This document shows positions 9,502-53,363 of a stretch of DNA of 64,000 bases, one piece after another. The notes under the pieces are model-generated. The model was given only the letters and a program-made list of their open reading frames with translations, made no database searches and had not been told where the DNA came from. Position 1 is the stretch's first letter; each line of letters starts with the position of its first letter. Origin of the DNA: Thalassolituus maritimus. Its GTDB lineage: Bacteria > Pseudomonadota > Gammaproteobacteria > Pseudomonadales > Oceanobacteraceae. The stretch spans positions 114,285-178,284 of the forward strand of contig CAJWBH010000006.1 in the NCBI GenBank assembly GCA_913019975.1. The letters run 5' to 3'. Position numbers and translations under genes: made by a program.

Positions 9502-9879
9502 TCAGTGACTGATCATCCATGGCCGCATCGAGGGGAACATCTTGTTGCCTTCCGCGGTATACATCAGATTGCTCCGACGTTTTTTCGCGTTGCAACCACA
9601 GTTGCTACCATGCTTGTGGGCATGGCGCTCCTGCTTTTCCTTCTCGCGCGCATGGAATTCACCGGCGGTCATAACCTCGGGTGAGTGACTTGCTTTTTCG
9701 TTCGCTTCCATGGCTTCCCGCCGCTCTTTGATCATGCTGGCAATCTCTGGTGGCAACACAATCACCCGCGCAGACATAGTCTGGCATTGCGGGCAGAACG
9801 CGGGTTTATCGTGGTGCTCCATCGAAGCCAGTTCCTGGAATACACCGTGTTCAGGACATTTATAGTCATAGAGTGGCAT
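9502..9879 (-). CDS. fmdB: FmdB-like zinc-ribbon protein
   Basis: The 125-residue protein starts MPLYDYKCPEHG and has a second CPQC knuckle about 25 residues on. This is the FmdB zinc-ribbon fold, usually encoded next to formamidase. The rest is charged and ends in a Cys/His-rich patch (HAHKHGSNCGCNAKK), which could bind metal. It is the last gene of the operon, 15 bp after fmdA. FmdB has been proposed as a regulator of formamidase expression, but its biochemical role is not established. Confidence 0.8.
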   Translation of the reverse strand: MPLYDYKCPEHGVFQELASMEHHDKPAFCPQCQTMSARVIVLPPEIASMIKERREAMEANEKASHSPEVMTAGEFHAREKEKQERHAHKHGSNCGCNAKKRRSNLMYTAEGNKMFPSMRPWMISH

Positions 9880-9894
9880 AGTTAAATCCCCTTA

Positions 9895-11124
9895 TTAAAG
9901 ATCCGGCGCTTTTGGAATATCGATGCTGCCATCGAGGTGTTTCTTAGGCCCTTCGGAATTCGGCTGCACGTCAAACTCGAAGATATCGGTTGGTAACCAA
10001 AGCGTCGCACAGGAGTTCGGAATATCAACCACACCACTGATGTGGCCCTGTACCGGTGCACAACCAATGATGGCGTAACCCTGAGCTTCGCTATAACCGA
10101 ACTGAGTTAAGTAGTTAATCGCGTTATGACAGGCCTGACGATAGGCAATGCTAGTATCCAGGTAATGCTGTTTACCGTCTTCATCAACAGAAATACCTTC
10201 AAAAATCAGATAATCGTCGTATTTCGGTACCATCTTACTTGGCTTAAAGATTGGATTTTTAACCTGATACTTCGCCATACCATCTTTGATGATATTAACG
10301 CGCATGTGAATCCAGCCCGCCATTTCAATCGCGCCACAGAAGGTGATTTCACCGTCACCCTGTGAGAAGTGAAGGTCACCAACAGACAGGCCCGCACCAT
10401 CAACATAGACAGGGAAATAGACTTTAGAACCGCGTGTCAGGTCTTTAATATCACAGTTACCACCGTGCTCACGAGGAGGCACAGTACGCGCACCTTCGGC
10501 TGCTGCTTTCGCTTTTTCGTCCCCTGATAGGCGACCCATGTGAGCCGTTTCTGCATAAGGCAGTGTCGCCAGTTCGGGGACGCGTTCTGGATCGGTGTCG
10601 ACTAAAGCTTTTTCACGGGTATTCCACATATCCAGCATTTTTTTGTCTGGCAGACAGCCGATCAGACCGGGGTGGAGAATACCGGCAAACTCAACGCCTG
10701 GAACGTGACGTGAGCTGGTCATCATGCCGTTGAAGTCCCAGATGGATTTCTGTGCTTCCGGGAAGCGATCGGTCAGGAAGCCACCGCCGTTCTTTTTCGA
10801 GAAGAAACCATTGAAGCCCCACTGGTTATCAGGGAAAGCACCGATGTCCAGAATATCAACTTCGAGAAGATCGCCTGGCTCTGCGCCTTCGACTTTAATC
10901 GGGCCGGATAAGAAGTGAACCTGGCTCAGGTCGACATCACGGACGTCGGAAGCGTCGTCGTTATTTTCAATCTGACCACCGGTCCAGTCATAACATTCAA
11001 CAATGAAGTCATCACCGGGTTTTACGGTTGCTACCATCGGAATGTCCGGATGCCAGCGGTTGTGAACCTGGTCATTTTCATAAGCGGATTTACTGAGATC
11101 AATTTTAATGATGGTATCAGTCAT
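9895..11124 (-). CDS. fmdA: Formamidase FmdA
   Basis: The 409-residue protein matches the acetamidase/formamidase family across its length. It has RWHPDIP, VKPGDDFIVECYDWTGGQI, the GDLLEVDILDI strand and SCATLWLPTDIFEFD near the end. It hydrolyses formamide to formate and ammonia in the cytoplasm. The frame is open 26 codons further upstream, but TAAGGAGAAAACC directly precedes the ATG at 11124, which is the family start (MTDTIIKIDLSKS). It lies between the AmiB-like gene and fmdB. With AmiE in the same operon, the cell can deaminate both C1 and C2-C3 amides. Confidence 0.95.
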   Translation of the reverse strand: MTDTIIKIDLSKSAYENDQVHNRWHPDIPMVATVKPGDDFIVECYDWTGGQIENNDDASDVRDVDLSQVHFLSGPIKVEGAEPGDLLEVDILDIGAFPDNQWGFNGFFSKKNGGGFLTDRFPEAQKSIWDFNGMMTSSRHVPGVEFAGILHPGLIGCLPDKKMLDMWNTREKALVDTDPERVPELATLPYAETAHMGRLSGDEKAKAAAEGARTVPPREHGGNCDIKDLTRGSKVYFPVYVDGAGLSVGDLHFSQGDGEITFCGAIEMAGWIHMRVNIIKDGMAKYQVKNPIFKPSKMVPKYDDYLIFEGISVDEDGKQHYLDTSIAYRQACHNAINYLTQFGYSEAQGYAIIGCAPVQGHISGVVDIPNSCATLWLPTDIFEFDVQPNSEGPKKHLDGSIDIPKAPDL

Positions 11125-11134
11125 GGTTTTCTCC

Positions 11135-12205
11135 TTAGGTAGCCTTGGGGCTTTTCGGGGTAAATTCCGGTTCGGAAGGGAATTCAGAGTGCGTTTCCGC
11201 AAGGGAAACCGGGAGCAGAGTGATCTGTCGTTCAGACAGAACGCCCTGCAGGTGTGTATTCATAGTGTCGTTGTGCGCAGTGAGGTGACGAGCCACCTCG
11301 GTAATAACCAGGTCGCGGAAACGACGTTCGATGGCGCGGGCACCGTACTTACGGAATCCGGATGTCATGACGATAAAATCACGAGCCGCCGGTTCAAGTT
11401 CAATACTGGTGTTGTGGCGTTTCAGTTGAGAATTCAGCGACTGCTCAAGGCCTTCAACCAGACTCGGCATATCCTCCGATGTCAGTGCAGAGAAGTACTC
11501 AACAATGCCAATGCGGTTGATAAATTCCGTATTAAAATGGCGCTCCAGTGCGCGTTTATAAAGACCACTGCGGTTAACTCCGGGAACGGAGTCCAGCCAG
11601 CGTAATGACTCAGCGAGGCGACTGCCGACATTACTCGTCATAAACACCAGCGTATTGGTAAAACTGATCGACTTCTGTCCCGACGCCAGCTTCAGGGTGC
11701 CGTTGTCGAGGATATTCATCAGACTCAGTACCACCGAGTGGTCTGCTTTTTCTATTTCATCGAACAGGACAATGCCCGGGCGCGAGCTTGTGCCACTGAT
11801 CAGTTCTTCATTAAGTAAGCTGAGGTTTTCTTTGCTGCCCACATAGCCCGGAGGTGCCCCTGTAATAGCAGCACTGTAGTGGCTCTGTGCGAGAGTATTC
11901 ATATCGATACGACAGAAAGCATCGCTGCGACCGTGAATCGCCTGCGCAACCTGTCGCACCATTTCGGTTTTACCAACGCCGGTCGCGCCGATAAATAAAG
12001 CTGAGAGAAGCGGGCGCCGACGGTCGTTAAGTCCGGCACTGATCACATTCAGTTGCGATTCAAGCCGATCAATCACGGCATCCTGACTACGGATACATGC
12101 TTTCAGGTGAGCTGATACTTCAGCCGGCTGAAAAGCGAACCGCGACAGAAGCGGTTGGCTCTGCGATTGTGTCTGTGAACGAATGCGATCAGTGACAAAG
12201 ACCAT
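11135..12205 (-). CDS. amiB: AmiB-like AAA+ (Clp-family) ATPase
   Basis: The 356-residue single AAA+ module has Walker A GATGVGKTE, a pore-loop-like GAPPGYVG, Walker B IVLFDEIEKAD, sensor 1 TSN and a C-terminal ARAIERRFRDLVITE helical domain. These are Clp/Hsp100 features, but it lacks a second AAA domain, an N-terminal adaptor domain and a ClpP-binding loop that I can see. Its position right after amiE matches AmiB of the Pseudomonas aeruginosa amiEBCRS operon, an ATPase of uncertain role (chaperone or transport energiser). The ATG at 12205 is chosen over a TTG two codons earlier; neither has a strong ribosome site. Confidence 0.8.
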   Translation of the reverse strand: MVFVTDRIRSQTQSQSQPLLSRFAFQPAEVSAHLKACIRSQDAVIDRLESQLNVISAGLNDRRRPLLSALFIGATGVGKTEMVRQVAQAIHGRSDAFCRIDMNTLAQSHYSAAITGAPPGYVGSKENLSLLNEELISGTSSRPGIVLFDEIEKADHSVVLSLMNILDNGTLKLASGQKSISFTNTLVFMTSNVGSRLAESLRWLDSVPGVNRSGLYKRALERHFNTEFINRIGIVEYFSALTSEDMPSLVEGLEQSLNSQLKRHNTSIELEPAARDFIVMTSGFRKYGARAIERRFRDLVITEVARHLTAHNDTMNTHLQGVLSERQITLLPVSLAETHSEFPSEPEFTPKSPKAT

Positions 12206-12219
12206 CGGCAATCTGGCGA

Positions 12220-13266
12220 TTACTCGCCAGCCTCCATTGAGCGCTCTTCAACGGGCAGAGTACCGACCGGGCAATCTGCTACGCCGACTGTTGTGCGCGT
12301 CATGGCTTCGACATCGGCCTGGGCTTTTTCAGCATCGGTTACCCAGGTGCGATAGAACTCGAATGGGCAATCGGCAATGCCTTTGTCACCATCGCCCGAG
12401 GCATGAACACCGCTGTATCCACGGTGCAGAAGTTTGAACAAATGATTCTGCGACTGATCGTTTTTACGGGCGTCGCGAATCTGTGACACAGATAATTGGG
12501 CGTACTGGACACCCATGTCTTCTTCGCCACATTCGCCGAGTGTACGGCCATCGAAGCCGATCAGAGCAGAGTGACCAAAGTAGGAATAGACACCGTCGAA
12601 GCCTGTTGCATTGGCGACAGCTACGTAGCAGTTGTTTGCCCATGCCATGGTTTTCGCCATCATGATCTGTTGTTCTTTGGCTGGGTACATGTAGCCCTGA
12701 CAGCGAACAATCAGCTCTGCGCCTTTCATGGCACAGTCGCGCCAGATCTCCGGATAGTTACCGTCATCACAGATGATCAGACTGATTTTTAACCCTTTAG
12801 GACCTTCACTTACATAAGTACGGTCACCGGGATACCAGCCTTCAATCGGGCACCACGGAATGCACTTACGATATTTCTGAACAATTTCGCCTTCGTTATT
12901 GATCAGGACTAGCGTGTTATAAGGCGCTTTATTCGGGTGTTCTTCGTGCTGTTCACCTGTCAGTGAAAAGATGCCCCAGGTATCGGCCTCTTTGCAGGCA
13001 GCTGCGAAGATGTCCGTTTCATCACCCGGGATAGTGGCAGCAGTGGCATACATTTCCTCTTCGTCGTACATGATTCCCATGGTTGAATATTCCGGGAATA
13101 CGACCAGATCCATACCGGGCAATCCGACTTTCATGCCCTTGATCATGTCGGCAATTTTGCGGGCGTTGTCGAGGACTTCAGCTTTACTGTGAAGACGTGG
13201 CATTTTGTAATTAACGACCGCAACACCAACGGTATCTGGGCTACTGGAAATATCACCGTGACGCAT
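12220..13266 (-). CDS. amiE: Aliphatic amidase AmiE
   Basis: The 348-residue nitrilase-superfamily enzyme aligns without gaps to P. aeruginosa AmiE from MRHGDISSS onward, so numbering is shared: the catalytic Glu59, Lys134 and Cys166 are all present (FPEY, KYRK, IICDDGN). It hydrolyses short aliphatic amides such as acetamide and propionamide to acid plus ammonia in the cytoplasm. AGCGGAGAAC precedes the ATG. It is 12 bp after the last ABC-transporter gene, an arrangement that couples amide import to hydrolysis. Confidence 0.97.
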
Positions 13267-13278
13267 AATGTTCTCCGC

Positions 13279-13968
13279 TTAAACAGAAAGGTATTTTGAA
13301 ATGGTTTCCTGGTCGGCTTCTTCGACCGGTACGTCCAGTACAATTTTTCCTTTTTCAATCACCAGAATCCGGTCAGCGACATCCAGTGCAAAACTGAGTA
13401 CCTGCTCGGAAACCAGAATCGACAAGCCACGCTGTGTACGTATCTGTTTCAGCGTTTTGGCCATATCTTTAATGATGCTGGGCTGAATCCCCTCGGTAGG
13501 TTCATCCAGAATGAGGACATCCGGGTTACTTGCCAGTGCTCGTGCGATCGCAAGCTGTTGTTGCTGACCGCCCGACAGGTTGCCACCGCGGCGATGTTTC
13601 ATTTCATCCAGCACCGGGAAGATGCTGTAGAGGTCAGATGGAATGTTGCGCTCACCGGTGCTGGTCAGTCCGGTTTCGATGTTTTCTTCTACCGTCATGG
13701 TCGAGAAAATCATCCGGCCCTGGGGCACGAAGGCCAGACCAGCACTGACACGCTCGTGACTCTTTAATGGCGACAGTTCTTTGTCCGCCAATTTAACCGT
13801 GCCTCCCTTGCTTGGAATCATGCCAATCAGGGATTTCATCAATGTGGTTTTGCCCATGCCATTGCGACCGAGAATGGCGATGATTTCGTTCTCTTTAAGG
13901 GTCAGGTTCATACCATCAATGATGGTGCTCTGGCCGTAGGCGACGGAGTAATCGTTTAATTGCAGCAT
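13279..13968 (-). CDS. urtE: ABC transporter ATPase, UrtE/LivF type (short-chain amide/urea importer)
   Basis: The 229-residue ATPase has Walker A GRNGMGKT, signature LSGGQQQQ and Walker B LILDEPTEG. The residues GIQPSII after Walker B are typical of the UrtE/LivF branch. It would pair with the UrtD-like ATPase to power the two permeases encoded upstream. Because the operon contains amidases and no urease, I infer short-chain amides (the Fmd system of Methylophilus) as the main cargo; urea remains possible. Confidence 0.88.
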   Translation of the reverse strand: MLQLNDYSVAYGQSTIIDGMNLTLKENEIIAILGRNGMGKTTLMKSLIGMIPSKGGTVKLADKELSPLKSHERVSAGLAFVPQGRMIFSTMTVEENIETGLTSTGERNIPSDLYSIFPVLDEMKHRRGGNLSGGQQQQLAIARALASNPDVLILDEPTEGIQPSIIKDMAKTLKQIRTQRGLSILVSEQVLSFALDVADRILVIEKGKIVLDVPVEEADQETISKYLSV

Positions 13969-13979
13969 GGTAGTTCCCC

Positions 13980-14744
13980 TTAATGGCCCAGGTAGACTTC
14001 GACGACTTTAGGGTCAGACTGCACCCGTTCCATTGAGCCTTCAGATAAAACCTTGCCCTGGTGAAGCACGGTCACCCGGTCGGCAATGTCGGCAACGAAT
14101 TGCATATCGTGTTCAATCACAAGTACTGAGCGGTCTTTGGTAATTCGGTGCAGCAGGTCTGCTGTCTGTTTACGCTCAGAGACCGACATACCTGCAACCG
14201 GCTCGTCCAACATCAGGAGCTCAGGGTCCTGGATCAGCAGCATGCCAATTTCCAGCCACTGCTTCTGACCGTGAGAGAGCAGGTCAGCTGAGGTATCCAG
14301 TTTGTCGCCGAGAAAAATCATGTCGGCGATTTCTTTTACTTTGTCGACGACCTCTTTATCGCGACGGAAGAAGAGGGCACCCCAGACGTTGCGTCCACGC
14401 GGGAACGACAGCTCAAGATTTTCGAATACCGTCAGGTCTTCATAGATGGATGGGTTCTGGAATTTCCGACCCACACCGGCGTGAACAATCTGGTGCTCGT
14501 TCAGCTTGGTTAATTCTTTACCCTTAAATTTAATCGAACCTTCAGTGGCCTTGGTACGGCCACAGATGAGATCCAGTACCGTGGTCTTACCGGCCCCGTT
14601 AGGGCCGATAATGACGCGGATTTCTTGTTCTTCGACGTACAGCGATAAATCGTTCACTGCTTTAAAGCCATCGAAGGACACAGTCAGACCTTCTACGCTC
14701 AAGACAAAGTCTTTTGCTGGAATGGATTTCGTTGACTCAAGCAT
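13980..14744 (-). CDS. urtD: ABC transporter ATPase, UrtD/LivG type
   Basis: The 254-residue ATPase has Walker A GPNGAGKTT, a signature loop LSHGQKQWLEIG and Walker B LLMLDEPVAGM. The LSHGQ signature with KQWLEIG is characteristic of the UrtD branch rather than LivG. Its start overlaps the end of the UrtC-like permease gene by 8 bp, so translation is coupled. It is the second ATPase subunit of the amide/urea importer. Confidence 0.9.
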   Translation of the reverse strand: MLESTKSIPAKDFVLSVEGLTVSFDGFKAVNDLSLYVEEQEIRVIIGPNGAGKTTVLDLICGRTKATEGSIKFKGKELTKLNEHQIVHAGVGRKFQNPSIYEDLTVFENLELSFPRGRNVWGALFFRRDKEVVDKVKEIADMIFLGDKLDTSADLLSHGQKQWLEIGMLLIQDPELLMLDEPVAGMSVSERKQTADLLHRITKDRSVLVIEHDMQFVADIADRVTVLHQGKVLSEGSMERVQSDPKVVEVYLGH

Positions 14745-15939
14745 GTTTGCGTTCCTCTTCTGTCCGGGATTCGTCAGTCAGAGCCTCTTCAGGCGAATTT
14801 TCTTTGGCAGTGGGTTCCTGCGGACCAGGCGTGGCGGGTGAATCATCCTGAGACTTACCGGACATACGCAGCAGTATGGGTTCGATATAGCGCTGATAGA
14901 TACCAGCAAGACCATTCGGGAAGGCCATTACAACGCCGATAAACAGAGCACCCATAGCGAACAGCCAGAGTTCGGGGAAGCTTTCCGAAAAGCTGGTCTT
15001 AGCCCAGTTAACGAGTAATGTGCCGTACACAGCGCCGAGAATAGAAAGACGACCACCCAGTGCGCAGAAGATCACCATTTCAATCGAAGGAACGATGCCA
15101 ACGAAGGTAGGCGACATAAATCCGACCTGAAGCGTGAACATTGCGCCGCCGATCGCGGAGATTGCCGCAGCCAGGCAGAAGATAAAGATTTTGAATCCAG
15201 AGACGTCGTAGCCAGAGAAGCGAACGCGTTCTTCACTTTCACGCATCGCGACTAATAAGCGGCCGAGTTTGCTTTTAATCACAAAGGCGGCAACGAACAG
15301 GCAGATAAACAGTAGCAGCGCGTTGATGTAGTAGAGGATGTACTTCGCTTCGTCAGTACGGATATCCCAACCATGCAGTGTGCGCAGGTCGGTAATACCG
15401 TTTACGCCGCCGGTGTAACCTTGCTGACCGATAATCAGGATGGTCAGGATGGCCGCAACCGCCTGCGTGATAATGGCGAAGTACACACCACCGACACGAC
15501 GCTTGAACATGGCAACAGCAATGATAAAAGCGAAGACAGCGGGCACAGCAATAACAGCGAACAGAGTAAAGCCAAAGCTGTGGAAGGGTTCCCAGAACCA
15601 TGGCAGTTCGGTGAGCTGGTTCCAGTCCATAAAGTCCGGAATGCCGGGAGTCGACTGAATCGCTGTATTTTCAGGTGACGAGGCTTCCAGTTTCAGGAAC
15701 ATCGCCATGCAGTAACCGCCCAGGCCAAAGAATACCCCCTGACCGAGGCTGAGAATGCCACCGTAGCCCCAGCAAAGAACCAGACCGAGGGCAACGAAAG
15801 CGTAAGTGAGATATTTTCCCACCAGGTTAAGGCGGAAGATATCCATCGACAGCGGCAGGATCACCAACAGCAGAACTGCAAGAATGATCATGTGGCTGTA
15901 CTGATTGCGGGCAATAAAATCGGCAAATTTATTCATCAA
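14737..15939 (-). CDS. urtC: ABC transporter permease, UrtC/LivM type
   Basis: The 400-residue inner-membrane permease has about ten hydrophobic segments and the GYGGILSLGQGVFFGLGGY motif of the UrtC/LivM group. There is a cytoplasmic EERVRFSGYDV coupling loop near the middle. The last 45 residues are a hydrophilic tail rich in Pro, Glu and Ser (PATPGPQEPTAKENSPEEAL) that is longer than usual. It partners the UrtB-like permease to form the channel. Confidence 0.9.
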   Translation of the reverse strand: MMNKFADFIARNQYSHMIILAVLLLVILPLSMDIFRLNLVGKYLTYAFVALGLVLCWGYGGILSLGQGVFFGLGGYCMAMFLKLEASSPENTAIQSTPGIPDFMDWNQLTELPWFWEPFHSFGFTLFAVIAVPAVFAFIIAVAMFKRRVGGVYFAIITQAVAAILTILIIGQQGYTGGVNGITDLRTLHGWDIRTDEAKYILYYINALLLFICLFVAAFVIKSKLGRLLVAMRESEERVRFSGYDVSGFKIFIFCLAAAISAIGGAMFTLQVGFMSPTFVGIVPSIEMVIFCALGGRLSILGAVYGTLLVNWAKTSFSESFPELWLFAMGALFIGVVMAFPNGLAGIYQRYIEPILLRMSGKSQDDSPATPGPQEPTAKENSPEEALTDESRTEEERKHA

Positions 15940-15951
15940 TTAGACTCCTGC

Positions 15952-16878
15952 TCAGTGACGTACTTTGAGAGTGAACAGACCCTGAGGACGAAGCATCAGA
16001 ATGCCGACCACAAACAGCAGGGTGAGTACTTTGGCCATTGAGCCGCTGAGGAAAAACTCCATCGTTGACTGGGCCTGAGAGATGGTGAAGGCCGAGGCGA
16101 CGGTACCCAGAAGGCTGGATGCACCACCGAACACAACAACAAGGAAGGTATCAACGATATACAGCTGACCTGACGTCGGACCGGTAGAACCGATCATGGT
16201 GAACGCAGAACCTGCGATGCCTGCGATGCCGCAACCGAGTGCGAAGGTCAGACGGTCAACTTTCTCGGTATTAATACCAACAGCAGCAGCCATCGGACGA
16301 TTCTGTACAACGGCGCGGGTTTGTTTACCCAGACGGGATTTCTGCATCATCAATGCAACACCGACGGTAATCACGATCGTCAGGCCCATCACAAACAGAC
16401 CATTAACCGGCACTTCAACCATGTCGGTTACAGGGTACGAACCCATCAACCAGTCAGGCAGAGTGACGCCTACTTCACGCGCGCCAAATACGGTGCGGTA
16501 GAGTTGTTGCAGAATCAGGCTCAGGCCCCAGGTAGCAAGCAGAGTATCCAGAGGGCGGTGATACAGGTGGCGTATCATCGCCCACTCGACAAAGGCCCCG
16601 AGAGCGGCCGTGACAAAGAAGGCCACTATCATGGCCAGAAAGAAGTAACTGCCATAAATACTTGGCAGGTAGTCAGCAAACAGATTTGAAATTATGTAGG
16701 TAACGTAAGCACCGAGAATCATAAATTCGCCGTGTGCCATATTGATCACACCCATCTGGCCGAAAATAATCGCCAGACCGAGTGCCATCAGAACAAAAAC
16801 AGAAAACAGGATAAGTCCGGCAAAACCTTGCATAGCAAAGATGGAGGTAAGCTCGGATGCAGAATATTCGGCAAACAT
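15952..16878 (-). CDS. urtB: ABC transporter permease, UrtB/LivH type
   Basis: The 308-residue permease has eight or so hydrophobic helices and the family motif GLAIIFGQMGVINMAHGEFM near residue 35, plus the cytoplasmic coupling region KQTRAVVQNRPMAAAVGI. CCGGGGAGAAAC lies upstream of the ATG. It follows the binding-protein gene after a 104-bp spacer containing a hairpin, so it is probably made at lower levels than the binding protein. Confidence 0.9.
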   Translation of the reverse strand: MFAEYSASELTSIFAMQGFAGLILFSVFVLMALGLAIIFGQMGVINMAHGEFMILGAYVTYIISNLFADYLPSIYGSYFFLAMIVAFFVTAALGAFVEWAMIRHLYHRPLDTLLATWGLSLILQQLYRTVFGAREVGVTLPDWLMGSYPVTDMVEVPVNGLFVMGLTIVITVGVALMMQKSRLGKQTRAVVQNRPMAAAVGINTEKVDRLTFALGCGIAGIAGSAFTMIGSTGPTSGQLYIVDTFLVVVFGGASSLLGTVASAFTISQAQSTMEFFLSGSMAKVLTLLFVVGILMLRPQGLFTLKVRH

Positions 16879-16982: not shown

Positions 16983-18239
16983 TTACTGGTAACCCTCAGG
17001 GAATGGATCAGGCTCGATCAGTTCATCACTTTCATAAACCACTTTGTACTGACCGTCAGGCTCGGCGAGACCGATGCGGGTTTTCGACCAAAGGTGATGG
17101 TTTTCGTGAACACGGACATAACCTTCTGGTGCGGTTGTCAGCTCGATACCAGGAGAGGCTTCACGGACTTTATCGATATCGAAAGAACCGGCTTTTTCGA
17201 CCGCTGCTTTCCATAACCATGGGCCAAGGTAAGCTGCCTGAGTTACGTCACCGATCACGATGTCGTCACCCCAGCGTTCTTTAAATGCTTTTACGAAGGC
17301 CTGGTTGTTTTCGTTAGGCAGAGACTGGAAGTACTTCATTGAAGCGTAAATACCTTCAATGTTCTCACCACCAATACCCAGGATTTCATCCTCGGTCACC
17401 GAGATGGTAAGGAACAATGGCTTCTCTTTGCCCATGTCGATACCGGCCGCTTTCAGCTGCTTGTAGAAAGCAACGTTAGAACCGCCCACCACTGAGATGA
17501 ATACAACGTCAGGTTTTTTCAGCTTGATTTTGTTGATCACAGAGTTGAACTGAGTGTGACCCAGTGGGTAGTACTCTTCGCCCACAACTTTAGAGCCGAG
17601 TACGTTTTCGATGTGCTTACGTGCAATTTTGTTTGAGGTACGTGGCCAGATGTAGTCAGAGCCGAGCAGGTAGAATTTCTTCGCACCTTTTTCGCGGGCT
17701 GCCCAGTCCAGACCTTCAAGAATCTGCTGAGTCGCTTCCTGACCGGTGTAGATCACGTTAGGTGACTGCTCCAGACCTTCGTAGAAAGTCGGGTAGTAGA
17801 GCATACCGTTATACTGCTCAAAGACTGGCAGAGCGGCTTTACGTGACGCTGAAGTCCAGCAACCGAAGACGGCCGCGACTTTATCCTGAACCAGGAGCTT
17901 CTTGGATTTCTCAGCGAAGGTCGGCCAGTCACTGGCGCCGTCTTCCTGAATGTATTCGATCTTACGACCCAGTACACCGCCCATGGCGTTGATCTGCTCA
18001 ATGGCAAGCTTCTCAGCCTGTACTGAACCTGTTTCACTGATCGCCATGGTGCCAGTAACAGAGTGTAGAATACCGACTTTAACGGTATCGTCCGTTACTG
18101 CCAGCCCAGTGCTGTTCACTTCGTCCGCCAGCGCTGGAACACTTGTATGTGCAAGCATCAGAGCGGCAGGTATTGCGAGTAAATTTTTCAGAAAACCGCG
18201 CCGTGCAAGCGCTGTGTTTTCAAAGGTTGGTAGTCGCAT
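16983..18239 (-). CDS. urtA: Periplasmic short-chain amide/urea-binding protein (FmdD/UrtA type) with Tat-like signal
   Basis: The 418-residue protein begins with a twin-arginine-like signal (ARRGFLKNLLAIPAALMLA) and a cleavage region around PALADEV. It is followed by a type I periplasmic-binding fold with VKVGILHSVTGTMA, FGCWTSASRKA, YYPTFYEG and YPLGHTQF. These are the signatures of the UrtA/FmdD/AmiC group that binds urea or short amides. It is the first gene of the operon, with a GAGG ribosome site before the ATG, and faces the divergent sensor gene. AmiC of Pseudomonas is a cytoplasmic relative used as an amide sensor; this copy is clearly exported. Confidence 0.9.
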   Translation of the reverse strand: MRLPTFENTALARRGFLKNLLAIPAALMLAHTSVPALADEVNSTGLAVTDDTVKVGILHSVTGTMAISETGSVQAEKLAIEQINAMGGVLGRKIEYIQEDGASDWPTFAEKSKKLLVQDKVAAVFGCWTSASRKAALPVFEQYNGMLYYPTFYEGLEQSPNVIYTGQEATQQILEGLDWAAREKGAKKFYLLGSDYIWPRTSNKIARKHIENVLGSKVVGEEYYPLGHTQFNSVINKIKLKKPDVVFISVVGGSNVAFYKQLKAAGIDMGKEKPLFLTISVTEDEILGIGGENIEGIYASMKYFQSLPNENNQAFVKAFKERWGDDIVIGDVTQAAYLGPWLWKAAVEKAGSFDIDKVREASPGIELTTAPEGYVRVHENHHLWSKTRIGLAEPDGQYKVVYESDELIEPDPFPEGYQ

Positions 18240-18342
18240 AGTCAGGCCTCACTTAGGTAGTTTGTGGTTGCTGTGACCTTTTCAGATTGCCTGTAGCGAC
18301 GGTTTTGGAACATTCGTTGAACGCTCCACCGGGGTACGTCAT

Positions 18343-18373
18343 TTGACGCATACGAGTTGGCACGGGATATGAT
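18343..18373 (+). promoter_or_regulatory. Candidate promoter for the sensor kinase gene
   Basis: TTGACG (18343-18348) and TATGAT (18368-18373) are spaced by 19 bp. Both hexamers are good sigma70 matches, although the spacer is long. On the opposite strand TATATT (18375-18380) could be the -10 of the urtA-like operon, so the two promoters would nearly abut. Confidence 0.4.
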
Positions 18374-18459: not shown

Positions 18460-21400
18460 ATGGCAAACCCACAACTACTGACTACCCGCCGTAACTACAA
18501 TCGCTGGGTTGCCAACCAGACCCTCGAAGACTTTGCGCTTCGGTTTACCGGTAAGAACGCCCGCCGCTGGTCGTCGGCACGGGTATCCAACACCGCACTG
18601 GGAGCGATTTCCTTTCTGGCGCTGGAAGCCATCGGGGCTGCGATCACTCTGGTCTATGGCGTCCATGCGGCGCTTCTGGCGACCATGGTGGTGTCGGCCA
18701 TTATCTTCCTGACGGCAATTCCCATCAGTTATTACGCGGCCCGCTATGGGGTCGATATTGATCTGCTCAGCCGGGGAGCCGGATTCGGCTATATCGGCTC
18801 GACGGTGACTTCGCTGATCTACGCATCTTTCACCTTTATCTTTATGGCGCTCGAAGCTGCCATCATGGCGTCGGCCATGGATATCCTCTTTTCGGTGCCC
18901 TTGTGGCTTGGCTACCTGATCAGTGCCTTGATCGTGATTCCGCTGGTAACTCACGGTATTACCCTGATTTCACGGTTTCAGCTATGGACTCAACCCCTCT
19001 GGTTTCTGCTTCAGCTGGCGCCGTTCGTGTTCATTCTTTGGCAGGAAACTCAGGCCATCAGCGACTGGATCAACTTTGAATCGCCGGTTGCACCGTCAGA
19101 GGGCAACGGCGTCAGTCTGATCTATTTTGGTGCCGCATCTGCCGTCATCTTTTCGTTGATTGCTCAAATCGGAGAGCAGGTCGACTTCCTGCGCTTTTTG
19201 CCGGAGCCGAAACCGGATCAGCGACTACGCTGGTGGACTGCATTGATTATCGGCGGGCCGGGATGGATTCTGATGGGCGCCATTAAAATCATGGCCGGAT
19301 CATTTCTGGTTGTGCTGGCACTCAGTCACGGGCTGGGTTACGACGAGGCGGGTGACCCGACCCACATGTACGCTGTTGCGTTCAGCTACCTGACCGAATC
19401 ACCACTGGCGGTGATGGCACTGACGGGGATTTTTGTAGTGCTCTGTCAGGTGAAGATTAATGTCACTAACGCCTACGCGGGCTCAATCGCCTGGTCGAAT
19501 TTCTTTTCGCGTCTGACTCACAGTCACCCAGGTCGTGTGGTCTGGTTATACTTCAACGTTATGATCGCCATTCTGGTAATGGCACTGGGTGTGTACGAAT
19601 CACTCGAACATATTCTGGGTATTTATTCGAATGTCGCTGTGGCTTGGGTCGGTGCGCTCGTTGCTGACCTGGTGATTAATAAACCTCTCGGCCTCAGCCC
19701 TAAACATATTGAGTTTAAGAGGGCGTATCTCTACGACATTAATCCTGTGGGCTTTGGCGCTATGGTGCTCGCATCTCTGTGCGGCATTTTGTCATTTACC
19801 GGTATCTGGGGTGAGACGGCACAGGCGCTGTCTTCGTTTATTTCTTTATTTACTGCGTTCTTTCTGGCACCTGTTATCGCTCTGATCACCGGCGGTAAAT
19901 ACTATCTTGCGCGTGAGATTATTCCGCTGTCACCAGCCACTGAGCAGTTAACCTGCAGCGTCTGCGAGAACGAATTCGACCGCGAAGATATCGCCGTGTG
20001 CCCGGCTTACAACGGGCACATCTGCTCGTTATGCTGCACGCTGGAATCACGCTGCCACGACCAGTGCAAAGAAAACGCACGCTTCAGCGATCAGATTGCC
20101 GCGACGCTGACGACCCTACTTCCCGACCGCTTAGTACATCGTCTTAACCCTCGTATTCTGCAGTTTTCGGGTTTATTGACCATTATCGGTGGCATCGTTG
20201 GGCTCCTGTTCTGGTTGGTGTACATGCAGGCACCTTCTGATAACAGCATGCAGGCTTTGCTTGGCAGTAGTCTGTTGCAGGTTTACGTATTGTTGATGAT
20301 TATCGTCGGTGTTCTGATCTGGTTATTTGTACTCGCTAACGAGAGTCGCGAGTTAGCGCTAGATGAAGCCACAAAACAGACGGATCTGTTATCGCAGGAA
20401 ATTGCTGCGCATGAAGAGACAGACCGTGCTTTGCAGCAGGCGAAAGAATTAGCAGAGGCTGCTAACCTGGCAAAAAGTCGCTATCTCGGTGGTATCAGTC
20501 ACGAGTTAAGAAGCCCACTGAATTCTGTGCTGGGTTACGCTCAGTTACTCGAAAAAAGTGACGGCCTCAGTGATAAACAGCAACGTCAGATAAGTCTGAT
20601 CCGCAGTAGTGGCGAATATCTTGCTGACCTGATTGAAGGCTTGCTCGACCTGTCGCGCATCGAAGCCGGGCGGCTTGAGATTCGTCGTGATGAAGTCAAC
20701 CTCAAGCGCTTATTGAATGATCTCGCCGAAATGTTCCGTCTGCAGTCGGTCGCCAAGGGCATTACGTTTACGTACGAGGCGCCGGCGTATTTACCGGATA
20801 TGGTACGTACCGACGAAAAACATCTGCGCCAGATTCTCACTAACCTTTTATCGAATGCCGTGAAATATACGGAGACCGGCGGTGTTTCGCTGAGCGTAAA
20901 ATACCGTAGCCAGGTTGCTGAATTTACGGTAAAAGACACCGGGCCGGGGATCAGCGCAGAAGAGCACAAAAAGATATTCCAACCGTTTGAACGTATTCGC
21001 AAACCTGGCCATCCGCAGCAGCCGGGCACCGGTCTTGGCCTGACGATCAGTCAATTACTTGCCGATATTATGGGCGGTGAAATCACACTGAAAAGCGCAC
21101 CGGGTTCCGGCAGTACGTTCCGCTTAACCATGATGCTATCCAGCATTGAACGAAAAGTTCACCTTGCTGATAAACCCGCAGCGCCGGCACAGAAAATCAT
21201 TGGTTATGAAGGCGATAAACGAGTCGTACTCACTGTGGATGATGAACCATCACATCGTGGGCTGATCAGTGAGACCTTATCGCCCCTCGGGTTTACCGTG
21301 CTCGAAGCCTCCGGTGCCGATGAATGCGAGGCTGTGCTTGGTGAGGCCAGAGTCGATCTTCTGCTACTGGATATTTCGATGCCGGGCCGCAACGGCTGGA

Positions 21401-21900
21401 CCCTGTTGCAGAAGCTACGTAACGATGGATTTTCGGCGCCTGTGATTATGGTATCTGCTGATGCGGAAGACCGGATTTCTGCTGAAGGAAACGGGGCATT
21501 TTCTGAACCGGGCCGACGTTTGAATGATGACTATCTGATCAAACCGATGAAGGATCAGGTATTACTCGATAAAATTGCGCGACAGCTGGATCTCAGTTGG
21601 ATTTATGAAGGCAGCCCTGAGGACGTCCCGAAGCAGGCAAGGGTCGCTCCTCTCACTGATGCGAGGCTACGCGAATTTATGTCGTTTTCTCAGCTCGGCT
21701 ATATCGCCGGGCTGGAGGCATTGATCGAGGCTTGCGAGCAGGAAGAGTTGGACCCTGATTTCGTCAGAGAGCTTAAGCGCTGTATTACCTCGTTCCGCTT
21801 TGCTGACGTCCACGCCATGTGCGCCGCGCGCCTGGATGCTCAATCTCCGAAGTCACAAGATAATACTGATGAGCACAGTATTGGGAGTGAAAAACCATGA
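18460..21900 (+). CDS. NCS1 transporter-like/hybrid histidine kinase fusion (putative amide or nucleobase-type sensor)
   Basis: A 1146-residue chimera. Residues about 10-490 resemble an NCS1 (cytosine/purine/allantoin) permease with about 12 membrane segments and a typical start (RRWSSARVSNTALGAISF). A cysteine-rich module with eight Cys follows at about 505-545, then two further hydrophobic segments (about 565-630). Next come a coiled linker, HisKA with the phospho-acceptor H681 in GGISHELRSPLN, HATPase with DTGPGI and GTGLGL, and a receiver with D971 (LLLDISMPG). The last 100 residues are helical, without a clear HPt motif. Transporter-kinase fusions of another transporter family are known (CbrA). 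TGGAGA precedes the ATG. It overlaps the response-regulator gene by 4 bp. Divergence from the amide operon suggests it senses amides, urea or a related compound. Confidence 0.88.
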   Translation: MANPQLLTTRRNYNRWVANQTLEDFALRFTGKNARRWSSARVSNTALGAISFLALEAIGAAITLVYGVHAALLATMVVSAIIFLTAIPISYYAARYGVDIDLLSRGAGFGYIGSTVTSLIYASFTFIFMALEAAIMASAMDILFSVPLWLGYLISALIVIPLVTHGITLISRFQLWTQPLWFLLQLAPFVFILWQETQAISDWINFESPVAPSEGNGVSLIYFGAASAVIFSLIAQIGEQVDFLRFLPEPKPDQRLRWWTALIIGGPGWILMGAIKIMAGSFLVVLALSHGLGYDEAGDPTHMYAVAFSYLTESPLAVMALTGIFVVLCQVKINVTNAYAGSIAWSNFFSRLTHSHPGRVVWLYFNVMIAILVMALGVYESLEHILGIYSNVAVAWVGALVADLVINKPLGLSPKHIEFKRAYLYDINPVGFGAMVLASLCGILSFTGIWGETAQALSSFISLFTAFFLAPVIALITGGKYYLAREIIPLSPATEQLTCSVCENEFDREDIAVCPAYNGHICSLCCTLESRCHDQCKENARFSDQIAATLTTLLPDRLVHRLNPRILQFSGLLTIIGGIVGLLFWLVYMQAPSDNSMQALLGSSLLQVYVLLMIIVGVLIWLFVLANESRELALDEATKQTDLLSQEIAAHEETDRALQQAKELAEAANLAKSRYLGGISHELRSPLNSVLGYAQLLEKSDGLSDKQQRQISLIRSSGEYLADLIEGLLDLSRIEAGRLEIRRDEVNLKRLLNDLAEMFRLQSVAKGITFTYEAPAYLPDMVRTDEKHLRQILTNLLSNAVKYTETGGVSLSVKYRSQVAEFTVKDTGPGISAEEHKKIFQPFERIRKPGHPQQPGTGLGLTISQLLADIMGGEITLKSAPGSGSTFRLTMMLSSIERKVHLADKPAAPAQKIIGYEGDKRVVLTVDDEPSHRGLISETLSPLGFTVLEASGADECEAVLGEARVDLLLLDISMPGRNGWTLLQKLRNDGFSAPVIMVSADAEDRISAEGNGAFSEPGRRLNDDYLIKPMKDQVLLDKIARQLDLSWIYEGSPEDVPKQARVAPLTDARLREFMSFSQLGYIAGLEALIEACEQEELDPDFVRELKRCITSFRFADVHAMCAARLDAQSPKSQDNTDEHSIGSEKP

Positions 21901-22829
21901 GTCCTGAAGCAGGCTCGGCTAAACCCGGTGCTACAACTGCTGGCACTATTCTGATCGTCGACGATACACCGGAATCCCTGGCCTTTATGAATGAGGCATT
22001 GGCTGGGGCAGGGTATACCGTTTTAGTCGCTATGGACGGTGAGCAGGCATTGAATATCGCCCGGTTGATGACGCCCGATCTGATTCTGATGGATGGCGTA
22101 ATGCCTCGTATGGATGGCTTTGAAACCTGTCGTGCTCTCAAGGCATCACCTGACAGCGAAGATGTCCCGGTCATTTTTCTCACCGGGCTGAGCGATAGCA
22201 GTGATGTATTAAAAGGGCTTGAGGCTGGCGGCGTCGACTACCTGACCAAGCCGGTCAACCTCGATGAAATGCTGGCACGTGTGCAGGTGCACCTGTCTAC
22301 GGCAATGAAAACCAAGAGCGCCCGTCGTGCCCTTGAAGAAATGGGACAGCCGGCGTTTGCCTGTGATGTCAACGGAACCTTGCTCTGGGCAACGCGAGTC
22401 GCCGAAGAACTGCTGGGAAGCACAGGGGTTGAACTGGCAAGCTGGCAACCGGTATTAAGCCAGGATTTACCTGCATGGTTGACCCGCTCGCCAGAGAGAA
22501 ATGCCATGCTGCGATTAACGTCCGATCAGGCCGAAGTCAGTGTCCGATATCTGGGTCGCCCGTTACCGGGAGAGTACCTGATGCGCTTCGTATTGAATGA
22601 AGAGGTTGCTGCGCGTAAGGCCTTGCAGGCAGCGTTTGATCTTACCGATCGTGAGACGCAGGTGCTGTTCTGGCTCAGTCGGGGCAAAACCAATCAGGAA
22701 ATTGCGCAAATACTGGAGATGAGCCCCAGAACGGTGAATAAGCATCTTGAGCCTGTATTCCGTAAGTTGGGTGTTGAGAATCGCACGGCAGCGGTGGCCA
22801 CCGCATTAGCTATCTCTGGGCAACAATAA
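21897..22829 (+). CDS. LuxR-type response regulator paired with the transporter-kinase
   Basis: The 310-residue regulator has a receiver (about 17-130) with the acidic pair VDD, phospho-acceptor D66 in LILMDGVMPRMDGF and the conserved Lys in LTKPVN. A PAS-like middle segment (about 145-225) is followed by a LuxR/NarL helix-turn-helix (about 243-308: LTDRETQVLFWLSRGKTNQE). The ATGA overlap with the kinase gene indicates coupled translation and a cognate pair. It probably activates the divergent amide operon through the phased repeats at 18389-18446; that link is inferred from position only. Confidence 0.88.
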   Translation: MSPEAGSAKPGATTAGTILIVDDTPESLAFMNEALAGAGYTVLVAMDGEQALNIARLMTPDLILMDGVMPRMDGFETCRALKASPDSEDVPVIFLTGLSDSSDVLKGLEAGGVDYLTKPVNLDEMLARVQVHLSTAMKTKSARRALEEMGQPAFACDVNGTLLWATRVAEELLGSTGVELASWQPVLSQDLPAWLTRSPERNAMLRLTSDQAEVSVRYLGRPLPGEYLMRFVLNEEVAARKALQAAFDLTDRETQVLFWLSRGKTNQEIAQILEMSPRTVNKHLEPVFRKLGVENRTAAVATALAISGQQ

Positions 22830-24521: not shown

Positions 24522-25556
24522 ATGTTTGGACTGTTCAAATCTGCGAAACCACACACCTTAACCATCGAAGGCGTTGGAGAGTTCACGGTAAATCCGAAAG
24601 AGACCATTCTGACTGCTGCCCTGCGTCAGGGAGTTCGCTTTCCGTACAGTTGCAAAGTAGGGGGCTGTGCAACCTGTAAATGCAAGCTTCAGGATGGTCA
24701 GGTTAAAGAATTGACCTCATCCGCTTTTATTCTCAGCTCTGAAGATCTCGACAATAAGTACATCCTGGGATGCCAATCTCAATTGAAGTCTGACGTGACG
24801 GTATTTGTTGATGGTTTGTCTGATGGCACCTCTGTAGCAAGCGTGCAGGAAGGAGAAATTACTTCGATTGAAAAACTCACAGCCGACATGGTCAGCGTCA
24901 CGGTTACCTTGCCAGAAGAGACCACCTACGTTCCCGGCCAATACGCTCTGTTTTCAACGCCGGCCGTGTCGTCAGGCTCGCGCAGTTATTCGTTCGCTAC
25001 TCCGCCTCAGGGTAACCAGGTACGTTTTTTCATCCGTGAAGTGCCCGGCGGCGAAATGTCAGGCTGGGCAAATCATCAGGCAGTTGTCGGCGATAAAGTC
25101 ACCATCGATGGCCCTTACGGTGATTTTTACCTTCGCCAGGGCAGCGGTGAAATGCTGATGATCGCGGGTGGCAGTGGTATCGCACCGGTACTGGCGATTC
25201 TCGAAGATGCCATGAACCATAAGATCGACCGGGATGTGACCTTCCTGTTTGGTGCCCGCACTGAAAAAGACCTCTGCGCGCTGGAGGATATTTCCCGAAT
25301 TTCCCGCAACTGGTCCGGCCGTTTCCGCTTTATTCCTGTACTGTCTGAAGAGCCAGAAGGTAGTAGCTGGGAAGGTCGTCGGGGTCTTGTTACCGATGTG
25401 ATCCCTGAATTAACAGATATTTCGCAGACCTATATGTGTGGGCCGCCACCTATGTTGGACGCCGCGGAAAAGTGCCTGCGTAACTCAGGCATGAGCGAAA
25501 ACGGAATTTATTGCGACCGGTTTACCGACCGTTCGCATACCCAAAAAGCCGGATAA
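24522..25556 (+). CDS. Ferredoxin-NAD(P)H reductase, electron-transfer subunit of the hydroxylase (XylA-like)
   Basis: The 344-residue reductase has a plant-type 2Fe-2S ferredoxin domain first (about 1-95, CKVGGCATCKCKL and a later Cys in YILGCQSQ). It is followed by an FAD domain (about 105-205, SRSYSFATPP) and an NAD(P) domain (about 210-335, AGGSGIAPVLAIL and MCGPPPMLDAAE). This single-chain design is that of XylA and related oxygenase reductases, which take electrons from NADH to a membrane diiron hydroxylase. The hydroxylase gene follows 48 bp downstream, so no rubredoxin is needed. Confidence 0.92.
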   Translation: MFGLFKSAKPHTLTIEGVGEFTVNPKETILTAALRQGVRFPYSCKVGGCATCKCKLQDGQVKELTSSAFILSSEDLDNKYILGCQSQLKSDVTVFVDGLSDGTSVASVQEGEITSIEKLTADMVSVTVTLPEETTYVPGQYALFSTPAVSSGSRSYSFATPPQGNQVRFFIREVPGGEMSGWANHQAVVGDKVTIDGPYGDFYLRQGSGEMLMIAGGSGIAPVLAILEDAMNHKIDRDVTFLFGARTEKDLCALEDISRISRNWSGRFRFIPVLSEEPEGSSWEGRRGLVTDVIPELTDISQTYMCGPPPMLDAAEKCLRNSGMSENGIYCDRFTDRSHTQKAG

Positions 25557-25604
25557 GACAGAATTTAAATCTAACATAAAAGAGCATAACGGAAGGAGAA
25601 TCCT

Positions 25605-26783
25605 ATGTTCCATTACCTCAAATACTTTCTTTTTCACGCCATTGGTCTGCTTGCCGCAGCGGCAATGTTCCTCGGCGCCGACTGGATTATTTATGGTCTG
25701 ATCGCCATCTTCGGCGGCTATATCGTACTGGACGCTGTGTTGGGGGATGACACAACGACTCCTGACTTTAAACACCCGGGTATTTTGACTGCGCAGCTCT
25801 GGTTAGCATTGCCTCTCCTTTCGTTGATTGTCTTTGCCTATTTCTGGCAGGTGAGTGCCGGTGATCTGTTCGGCCTGGGAGAGATGCTCACCAGCCTGAC
25901 CGGTTACGATGTTCTGGCAGCTAAAGCCGAGGGCACTTGGGTGTCAGATCTGTGCGCTCTGCTTATGACCGGCCTGATGATTGGTATGGTGGGCACCATT
26001 ACCGGCCATGAACTGACGCATCGTACCTGGGACCCGACCTCAATGTTTATTGGTCGCTGGTTGCTGGCTTTCAGCTTCGATGTCGCCTTCGCCGTTGAAC
26101 ATGTTTACGGTCACCACCGTTACGTGAGTACGACTAAAGATCCTGCCACTGCACCGCGTGGCCGCAACGTCTATTTCCACGTACTGGCATCGACCATTAA
26201 GGGCAACATCAGCGCACTTAAACTCGAAGCCGAGCGCCTGCGTAAAATGGGGCATAACCCACTGTCGATTCGTAACTCGGTACTGCGTGGCTACGGCATG
26301 AGCGCCATCATCGTTGCGCTGGCTTACCTGGCGGGTGGCGTAGAAACCATGCTGATGTTTATCGGTGCAGGCCTGTTCGGTAAAGCCCTGCTGGAAATCG
26401 TGAACTACATGGAACACTACGGCATGGTTCGTAATCCAGAACTGCCAGTGCAGCCACGTCACTCATGGAACACCAACAAGCGCTTCTCGTCATGGACCAT
26501 GTTCAACCTGACCCGTCACTCTCACCATCACGCTCACGGTGAAGTGCCATACCAGGACCTGCGCCCATACCCAGAAGCACCGACTATGATCAATGGCTAC
26601 CTGACTACCATCGTCGTCGCCCTGATCCCACCGCTGTGGCACCACCTGATGACGCCAAAAGTGCTGGAGTGGGATGAGAAATACGCCAGCGACGAAGAGA
26701 AGGTACTGGCCGCCGAAGCGAACCGTATCAGTGGCATTAAAGCGCTGACAGAGCATGGCCAGGTATCAGCTCAGCAGGCGTAA
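25605..26783 (+). CDS. Membrane diiron hydroxylase of the AlkB/XylM family
   Basis: The 392-residue integral-membrane hydroxylase has about six hydrophobic helices and the full set of His clusters: HELTH (first box), EHVYGHHRYV (second), NYMEHYGMVR (the AlkB/XylM hallmark) and LTRHSHHHAHG (third). The family hydroxylates alkane termini or methyl groups of aromatic hydrocarbons using O2. Pairing with a fused ferredoxin-reductase points toward the XylM side rather than rubredoxin-dependent AlkB; the substrate is not determined. GGAAGGAG precedes the ATG. Confidence 0.9.
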   Translation: MFHYLKYFLFHAIGLLAAAAMFLGADWIIYGLIAIFGGYIVLDAVLGDDTTTPDFKHPGILTAQLWLALPLLSLIVFAYFWQVSAGDLFGLGEMLTSLTGYDVLAAKAEGTWVSDLCALLMTGLMIGMVGTITGHELTHRTWDPTSMFIGRWLLAFSFDVAFAVEHVYGHHRYVSTTKDPATAPRGRNVYFHVLASTIKGNISALKLEAERLRKMGHNPLSIRNSVLRGYGMSAIIVALAYLAGGVETMLMFIGAGLFGKALLEIVNYMEHYGMVRNPELPVQPRHSWNTNKRFSSWTMFNLTRHSHHHAHGEVPYQDLRPYPEAPTMINGYLTTIVVALIPPLWHHLMTPKVLEWDEKYASDEEKVLAAEANRISGIKALTEHGQVSAQQA

Positions 26784-52814: not shown

Positions 52815-53363
52815 TTGGCCAAGGCTCTGATTGTCTATGCTCATCCTGCGCATCAGCGCTCAAGAGCAAATCGTGCTCTGTTGAACCGGATCAGCGATCT
52901 GCATAACGTCACCGTGCATGATCTATATGAAACCTATCCGGATTTCTTTATCGACGTAGAGGCCGAGCAGAAGCTGCTTCTGGAACACGACGTTATCGTA
53001 ATTCAGCATCCTGTGTACTGGTACAACATGCCAGCGCTTTTGCGTGAATGGCAGGATCTTGTATTGGAATACGGTTACGCCTACGGGCGTAAGCAGCAGC
53101 GTCTGGCAGGCAAATATATGTGGGTTGTATTGACGGCCGGGGCACCAGAGCATACTTACAGCGACACTGGTGTTAATGAGCGCCCGTTGAGTGAGTATTT
53201 TCTTCATTACCCGCGGATGGCGAACGTTTGTCATCTGGAAATGAAACCCACCTTTGAGGTTTATCATGGTCGTCATTCTCCGGATGAGGACCTTGATAAA
53301 ACGGTTGAGCAGTATCGGTCCTGTCTGTTGAAGTACCTGAAGGAGCACCCGGGCGATGCATGA
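52815..53363 (+). CDS. kefF: KefF-type quinone oxidoreductase, ancillary to potassium efflux
   Basis: The 182-residue flavodoxin-fold protein has KALIVYAHPAHQRSRANR, VIQHPVYWYNMPALLREWQD and FEVYHGRH. This is the KefF/KefG family that is required for full activity of Kef channels and has NAD(P)H:quinone reductase activity. It begins at a TTG with GGGGGCTGATA upstream. Its end overlaps the KefC-type gene by 8 bp, so the two are translated together, as in E. coli kefFC. Confidence 0.9.
   Translation: MAKALIVYAHPAHQRSRANRALLNRISDLHNVTVHDLYETYPDFFIDVEAEQKLLLEHDVIVIQHPVYWYNMPALLREWQDLVLEYGYAYGRKQQRLAGKYMWVVLTAGAPEHTYSDTGVNERPLSEYFLHYPRMANVCHLEMKPTFEVYHGRHSPDEDLDKTVEQYRSCLLKYLKEHPGDA

Follow-up and report, generated by a model that had tools for sequence, protein, structure and literature searches.

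An NCS1-like permease domain fused to a hybrid histidine kinase: a candidate sensor of short amides and urea

In a 64,000-nucleotide stretch of the Thalassolituus maritimus genome (contig CAJWBH010000006.1, positions 114,285 to 178,284; the window), a sensor kinase with a transporter-like front half is encoded divergently from an operon for the import and hydrolysis of amides. This arrangement raises the question of what the transporter-like domain senses and how such a signal might reach the genes opposite. The answer that we consider probable is that the domain is a receptor derived from a permease of the NCS1 fold, which binds a short amide or urea and signals through the kinase and a LuxR-type regulator, acting at a palindrome, to activate the import and hydrolysis genes. 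The computational support covers the architecture, the predicted fold class, the gene association, the conservation of the operator and the relation to free-standing permeases.

The presumed sensor domain and its kinase

The kinase gene (18460–21900, + strand) encodes 1146 residues, and was delineated by open reading frame (ORF) translation, Pfam, structure prediction and hhalign. The chain begins with an NCS1-like (CodB/Mhp1-type) permease domain, the presumed sensor (residues 1–490; 18460–19929, +), assigned by profile and fold. This is followed by a cysteine module, CxxC...C...CSLCC...C...C, defined by alignment of the fused proteins (residues 499–537; 19954–20070, +), and by two long helices (residues 564–637; 20149–20370, +) predicted at 564–590 and 595–637, which we read as an extra transmembrane (TM) pair leading into the kinase. 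HisKA and HATPase (residues 671–892; 20470–21135, +) and a receiver (residues 923–1039; 21226–21576, +) complete the protein. The Pfam matches (HisKA 671–737, HATPase 784–892, receiver 923–1039) define a hybrid histidine kinase. The adjoining response regulator (310 residues; 21897–22829, +; ORF and Pfam) overlaps the kinase ORF by 4 bp and has a receiver (18–130) and a LuxR/GerE helix-turn-helix (249–302), as in LuxR/NarL-type regulators. Both the single permease-like, cysteine, kinase and receiver chain and the coupling to a LuxR-type regulator, as described in a first-pass annotation of the window, are confirmed by these ORFs, the Pfam matches and the predicted fold.

The nature of the N-terminal domain was less apparent from family models, as Pfam found no family above chance in residues 1–490. 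With hhalign, comparison to an alignment of 15 NCS1 proteins gave 99.0% (E 5e-18, 384 columns). The control comparison to SLC5-type sequences gave 2.1%; this control set is small (three sequences), and one member is a CrbS-like protein that itself matches SSF only below the cut-off. A structure model was built from 18 sequences (pLDDT 77, pTM 0.78), and when this was compared with the PDB using Foldseek, CodB (7qoa, E 3e-7) and Mhp1 (2jln, E 3.6e-7) headed the 388 matches, with the best SSS/SLC5-type protein ranked behind them (E 1.4e-5). Membership of the SLC5/STAC group was rejected on these two comparisons. The proposal that the transporter family is NCS1-related, and differs from that of CbrA, therefore holds at the level of profile and predicted fold. 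The sensor domain shares 28% identity (E 2e-23) with a plasmid-borne ‘cytosine permease’, which in turn matches the NCS1 model at E 6e-17, under that model's cut-off. Searching solved structures with the sensor domain sequence gave no real match and pairwise BLAST against Escherichia coli CodB was not significant, so the NCS1 link needed profiles, fold and intermediates.

Several observations weigh against a simple assignment to NCS1, and against a conserved CodB-like site. The Pfam NCS1 model (PF02133) has no match in the kinase, in 18 sensor regions or anywhere in the genome. The NCBIfam cytosine permease model is matched by four of the 18 aligned sequences (best E 7e-8), the window's own not among them. 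The CodB substrate-site residues Trp108, Phe204, Thr278 and Thr279 were taken from the accessible part of PMC9379551 and located by an alignment at 21% identity. By this alignment the window protein has Leu233 where CodB has Phe204, and Val335 where CodB has Thr278; among the 98 fused proteins, 95 have Leu at the first of these positions and 84 have Val at the second. The aromatic pair that sandwiches the substrate in CodB (Trp108 and Phe204) is, by alignment, not found in the fused sensors; the Trp108 position is Phe in 85 and Leu in 13. The Thr279 (Na2) position is Thr in 88 of the 98, by alignment only. In favour of the receptor reading, nine positions that the alignment places in or close to the CodB site (E132, Q236, E239, Q240, D242, K332, N334, N337 and Y339) are identical in all 98 fused proteins and in 11 of 11 free-standing homologues (see below). 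Six of the nine also occur in both NCS1 proteins used as an outgroup, so part of this conservation is family-wide, which counts against that reading.

Given fold and profile similarity without a PF02133 match, and with altered CodB-site residues, we call the domain, on its sequence and model, a distinct NCS1-like branch that falls short of clean NCS1 membership. In predicted fold and in profile it resembles the NCS1 transporters CodB, Mhp1 and MetT. The sensor differs from these proteins in being unmatched by the Pfam model, in its fusion to a kinase and, by alignment, in a changed TM6 aromatic residue and one changed Na2 threonine. According to the available portion of PMC13390362, MetT is a case of an NCS1 protein that can take a non-cyclic nitrogen compound.

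Association with amide and urea genes

To survey the genomic distribution, the sensor domain and the formamidase FmdA were each sought in the same 398 genomes from the window's phylum. The sensor domain was matched in 54 genomes and FmdA was above its cut-off in 40. Of the FmdA genomes, 39/40 had the sensor compared to 15/358 of the others (Fisher p 1.9e-40, uncorrected for shared ancestry), and both were present together in 16 families. One of the 15 sensor-positive genomes lacking FmdA (G038) has a weak match for which no relative was found.

We then considered the neighbouring genes, called by tblastn in stretches of up to 20 kb, at 56 of the 60 matched places. The window itself was not counted, and a distant NCS1 relative (L083), a 1.9-kb piece (L084) and a place with no tblastn relative (L085) were omitted. 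FmdA, urease or urt genes were located within ∼10.5 kb of 54 of the 56 loci: 37 had FmdA, 13 urease and four a canonical urt importer where no urease was found. The two loci with none of these both sit at contig ends. In one locus counted as urease (L058), the kinase occurs alongside fmdA, the importer and urease. Among 22 loci of nearer relatives, all 22 had an fmd/urt-type importer gene and 18 had FmdA in the examined stretch; this set leaves out L001 and L002, which are 95–98% identical to the window, and L024, which has only the kinase part.

Other results temper this association. In a second sample of 369 genomes of the same class, 17 had a sensor match, and eight of the 16 newly examined fused sensors had no amide or urea gene within ∼10.5 kb. 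Three of the eight (L181, L184 and L185) have short upstream sequence; the sensors at L172–L175, and likewise the second L176 copy, appear to be genuinely unlinked. At L113, and at L178 and L182 in the second sample, the urease label comes from UreD alone. The unlinked group includes a sensor domain fused to a simple kinase (L172), one fused to a PAS-containing hybrid kinase (L174) and one fused to PAS-GGDEF-EAL (L173:6919–10554, − strand; Pfam), where a cyclic di-GMP output replaces the kinase. The co-occurrence with urt, fmd and ami genes that had been anticipated is thus borne out by the FmdA genomes and the 56 loci, and fails for half of the second set. Taken across genomes, the association of the sensor with amide and urea genes is strong.

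Additional copies of the sensor were also noted. In Methylotuvimicrobium a second sensor kinase (L011:19452–22853) lies ∼6 kb from the first, with no amide genes found adjoining it. In a plasmid collection the sensor domain occurs in 534 records, 342 of them from Klebsiella; both Klebsiella kinase loci examined (L115 and L141) contain the kinase, a urt-type importer and formamidase.

In the window, the operon divergent from the kinase lies on the − strand. It starts with a UrtA/FmdD-type periplasmic binding protein (16983–18239; TIGR03407, 549.8 bits against a cut-off of 492.75), followed by two ABC permeases, UrtB-like (15952–16878) and UrtC-like (14737–15939), and two ABC ATPases, UrtD-like (13980–14744) and UrtE-like (13279–13968). 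These four labels come from operon order and annotated relatives. Next are the aliphatic amidase AmiE (12220–13266; NF009802, 709.7 bits, cut-off 427), an AAA+ protein resembling the ClpB D2 half (11135–12211; family-model scans), which we take to be AmiB-like, FmdA (9895–11124; NF045496, 770.4 bits, cut-off 500; start codon picked by hand within the longer ORF 9895–11202) and an FmdB-type zinc-ribbon protein (9502–9879; family-model scans). The divergent importer–amidase–formamidase operon is therefore as the first-pass annotation described it. No ANTAR regulator was found beside the amidase; the sole ANTAR match in the genome is on contig C2 and the window is on C6, in keeping with the earlier remark that an AmiR-type regulator is missing here. 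The AAA gene of the window lies between amiE and fmdA; in Arthrobacter (L136) and Klebsiella (L141) the aliphatic amidase gene is likewise followed by one for an AAA protein. The host genome has a second UrtA gene (G000:C11:85104–86198), above the model cut-off and with no operator upstream.

The position of the binding-protein gene bears on a different explanation, in which the kinase reads ligand-loaded periplasmic FmdD/UrtA and the permease domain is merely a docking platform. This would suit the observation that the binding-protein gene is, in most loci, the target-operon gene nearest to the kinase. Kinases at L079, L081 and L171, however, stand beside fmdA without a nearby fmd/urt binding protein, an objection tempered by the presence of UrtA genes elsewhere in the L079 and L081 genomes. 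The invariance of the predicted pocket positions in sensors and free-standing permeases also argues against docking, which we regard as unlikely; direct binding of the ligand by the permease-derived domain is preferred.

A candidate operator between the divergent units

The intergenic region between kinase and importer contains a predicted operator, TACGTCATTTGACGCA (18335–18350, no strand assigned), identified by motif search and having one mismatch to TACGTCANNTGACGTA. It is ∼100 bp from each start codon, and is the only place in the host genome with one mismatch or fewer to TACGTCANNTGACGTA. Six other places have two mismatches each, no more than with the reversed control. The motif core is TACGY-N6-RCGTA and the extended form is ATACGTCA-NN-TGACGTAT. 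A perfect short core is also present at 53076–53091 of the window; the short core alone is thus not specific genome-wide. Scanning the intergenic region for sigma-70 promoters gave no match.

The motif came from 48 non-redundant intergenic regions (sensor domains <80% identical) out of 70 divergent kinase/importer loci. A palindromic dyad search found one dyad in 20 of the 48, compared to a maximum of three for any dyad in 20 shuffled sets. The core with one mismatch or fewer was present in 43/48 regions against 1.18 expected from dinucleotide shuffles, and the perfect core in 29/48 regions against 0/2400 shuffles. A chance origin of the palindrome was rejected.

Across 102 partly redundant loci (1.98 Mb) there were 80 perfect cores, compared to one in 0.77 Mb of shuffled sequence. 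Most of these (55) precede both the kinase and the importer or permease by no more than 450 bp, and another seven precede, by 79–161 bp, a urtA/fmdD-type match located apart from the kinase. The remainder are upstream of the kinase only (five), of fmdA (10) or of amiE (one), or are unexplained (two; L061:13689 and L179:1221, with no recognised target gene downstream). With a rule of 750 bp upstream, a site was found at 39/47 kinase-linked urtA genes and at 0/40 urtA genes of kinase-less genomes, the latter from 40 genera hand-chosen among the matches listed. Among 19 hand-chosen distant urtA paralogues in kinase genomes, five carry a site, four of them perfect. The four perfect sites are in G379, G225, G389 and G019, exactly the genomes with the kinase in a urease locus without urt. 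The operator therefore tends to track the target genes and not merely the kinase gene.

These comparisons have to be set against the following. The core was counted in the same regions where the motif was discovered, and five of the 48 regions (L016, L019, L098, L104 and L108) lack it at one mismatch or fewer; in L019 and L098 the core precedes fmdA instead of occupying the kinase–importer gap. The control urtA genes are mostly of the canonical type and the linked ones mostly of the fmdD type. A single kinase-less fmdA was available for comparison (G114), and it has no site. All four perfect distant urtA sites fall within one family (f12). Even so, the comparative evidence is strong, and suggests that the regulator binds the palindrome. 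The gene association and the shared operator together support the earlier proposal of a distinct regulatory route for amide and urea genes.

We can then suggest how the system might work. The N-terminal domain would act as a permease-type receptor from a branch of NCS1-fold urea/short-amide permeases. Its ligand would be a short amide, formamide or acetamide here and urea in urease-linked relatives, as homology, context and conservation suggest. A conformational change could reach the kinase by way of the cysteine module and the additional two helices, and phosphate would pass to the co-translated LuxR-type regulator, which has the domains to receive it. The regulator is expected to bind the TACGTCANNTGACGTA palindrome between the two transcription units and to activate the import and hydrolysis operon (fmdD...amiE-fmdA-fmdB). 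Activation is favoured over repression by the operator position and by the precedent of CrbR (accessible part of PMC5715377).

Free-standing relatives and known systems

Homologues of the sensor domain also occur without a kinase, as free-standing proteins of 535–575 residues, ∼40% identical to it. They are >60% identical to the Arthrobacter protein, except for that of Methylovirgula (49%). The Arthrobacter gene adjoins amiE, AAA and acs, that of Tsukamurella adjoins fmdB-fmdA and that of Moraxella fmdA-fmdB, and those of Acinetobacter johnsonii (ureEFG-J-D-ABC) and Klebsiella (ureDAB...EFG) are in urease operons. Since they are mostly in urease, formamidase or amidase clusters, the free-standing homologues are probably urea/amide permeases. 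Against this, two have no amide or urea neighbours; one further record is unannotated. At L171 the kinase is divergent from permease-fmdA-amiE, with the permease replacing the ABC importer in position and the operator between. L148 has a divergent kinase–permease pair, again with the operator between, and its further genes are unannotated. Scanning six kinase-less free-standing loci (L136, L137, L142, L143, L146 and L170) gave no perfect operator site. NCS1-like free-standing proteins in or beside urease operons at L143:7971–9578, L142:5663–7270 and L170:9107–10678 are named cytosine or allantoin permease where annotated; from their gene context they are likely to be urea permeases.

A tree of 111 rows was rooted with two NCS1 proteins as outgroup. 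Nine of the free-standing proteins diverge at its base, followed by another two, and the 98 fused sensors all fall into a single group (SH-aLRT 96). The tree search was a fast one and, according to a warning from the program, long branches may have drawn the nine spuriously to the outgroup. Fragments, frame-broken sequences and near-duplicates were omitted (L007, L012_1, L013_0, L013_1, L016, L021, L082 and L176_1). From these sequences the sensor looks like a urea/amide-type permease fused once to a kinase. The first-pass annotation had suggested a former nucleobase transporter, a wording that is only partly borne out. An NCS1-like transporter origin stands; the gene clusters of the nearest relatives, and their branching next to the sensors, make a urea/amide permease the more likely immediate ancestor.

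The free-standing proteins also bear on the role of the cysteine module. The module could itself be the point of entry, as a metal or redox sensor, leaving the permease domain as a relic. Urease is a metalloenzyme, and all eight cysteines are kept in 98/98 fused proteins, the window protein included (the strict pattern fits 91; the other seven, inspected by eye, differ at the residue after the third cysteine), both of which would be in line with such a role. The cysteine tail, however, already exists in the free-standing proteins, mostly with fewer cysteines and in several cases as CxxC...CSLC, and the invariance of the predicted pocket positions also counts against this reading. We therefore think cysteine-based sensing highly improbable, compared with ligand binding in the permease domain.

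Among the fused sensors, amide and urea contexts switch at least six times. The residue at position 128, equivalent to CodB Trp108, was the only one used from a ranking of differences between urea- and amide-linked sensors. It is Phe in 65/65 amide-linked proteins and Leu in 10/23 urea-linked proteins (p 2.5e-7, uncorrected for ancestry), a difference suggestive of substrate tuning. This is relevant to the alternative that the sensor reads nitrogen status, or the common product ammonium (or pH), instead of the substrate. Formamidase, amidase and urease all release ammonia, and the kinase is found in the contexts of all three, which would be expected of an ammonium sensor; the homology of the domain to permeases from urea/amide clusters and the split at residue 128 point instead to the substrate. 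We regard ammonium sensing as quite improbable and retain a short amide or urea as the expected ligand.

In these sequences, TM1 separates sensors from permeases with no exceptions. Position 55 is Asp in 11/11 permeases and in 0/98 sensors, which are non-acidic there, and position 56 is Glu in 98/98 sensors and 0/11 permeases. A broader view, which we judge to have an even chance of being correct, is that an unrecognised family of NCS1-fold urea/short-amide permeases, now annotated as cytosine/allantoin permeases or hypothetical proteins, gave rise by one fusion to a sensor module. The predicted pocket would have been left unchanged and TM1 altered at positions 55 and 56, possibly breaking the transport cycle and so producing a receptor. 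Thereafter the module would have been combined with several kinds of output (hybrid kinases, simple kinases and, in one case, GGDEF-EAL) and would have switched repeatedly between regulons for amides and for urea.

If the proposed sensor role is right, urea and small amides would have a dedicated receptor that is widespread in bacteria, its regulon and DNA site both predicted, and NCS1 would be added to the transporter families with known kinase fusions. The ‘cytosine/allantoin permease’ genes within urease clusters would gain a likely function, and the permease and sensor proteins would form a natural series for how a transporter becomes a receptor.

Two previously known amide systems invite comparison. 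The Methylophilus fmdDEF/fmdA/ami system reportedly comprises a binding-protein importer, formamidase, FmdB and amidase; the operon content here is alike, and what is new is the kinase pair together with the operator. In Pseudomonas aeruginosa, the binding-protein/antiterminator pair AmiC/AmiR controls amiE in response to short amides. Control of amiE by short amides is likewise predicted here, in this case through a two-component system with a DNA-binding regulator.

Fusion of a transporter domain to a kinase that signals for its nutrient is also seen in CrbS/CrbR, CbrA/CbrB and RpuS/RpuR (accessible parts of PMC5715377, PMC13022988 and PMC9100948). CbrA and CrbS are SLC5/STAC histidine kinases (PMC13022988 and PMC5715377, in part), and CrbS, also a hybrid kinase, has as its partner a LuxR-type regulator whose action depends on an inverted repeat (PMC5715377, in part). 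In contrast, the window sensor is NCS1-like and its regulon is for amides and urea; at the place of STAC it has the cysteine module and helix pair, as judged with no STAC-directed search. An Amt-type sensor kinase (PMC5764959, in part) is another transporter–histidine kinase fusion for a nitrogen compound, with an ammonium transporter rather than an NCS1 domain. The accessible part of PMC13296017 notes, for one genome, urtABCDE and fmdA together with a LuxR regulator and a hybrid kinase, and mentions no permease domain in that kinase. In the open PMC literature we found no description of the NCS1-like kinase fusion, its operator or NCS1-like urea/amide permeases; the accessible parts of PMC3925955, PMC11109136, PMC12625717, PMC4222082 and PMC11633122 contain nothing on an NCS1–kinase fusion.

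The host genome itself encodes a CrbS-like hybrid kinase on contig C3 (L255:11456–19652), together with a LuxR regulator, acetyl-CoA synthetase (acs) and a sodium:solute symporter. The protein has the same length as the window kinase and aligns with it only in the kinase and receiver parts, at 26%. The CrbS-like label is based on architecture, neighbours and a weak SSF match below the cut-off. One genome thus probably has two transporter-fused kinases of different families.

Elsewhere in the window, positions 24522–26783 encode a ferredoxin-type oxidoreductase followed by a membrane protein of the fatty-acid-desaturase family (Pfam), possibly an alkane hydroxylase pair.

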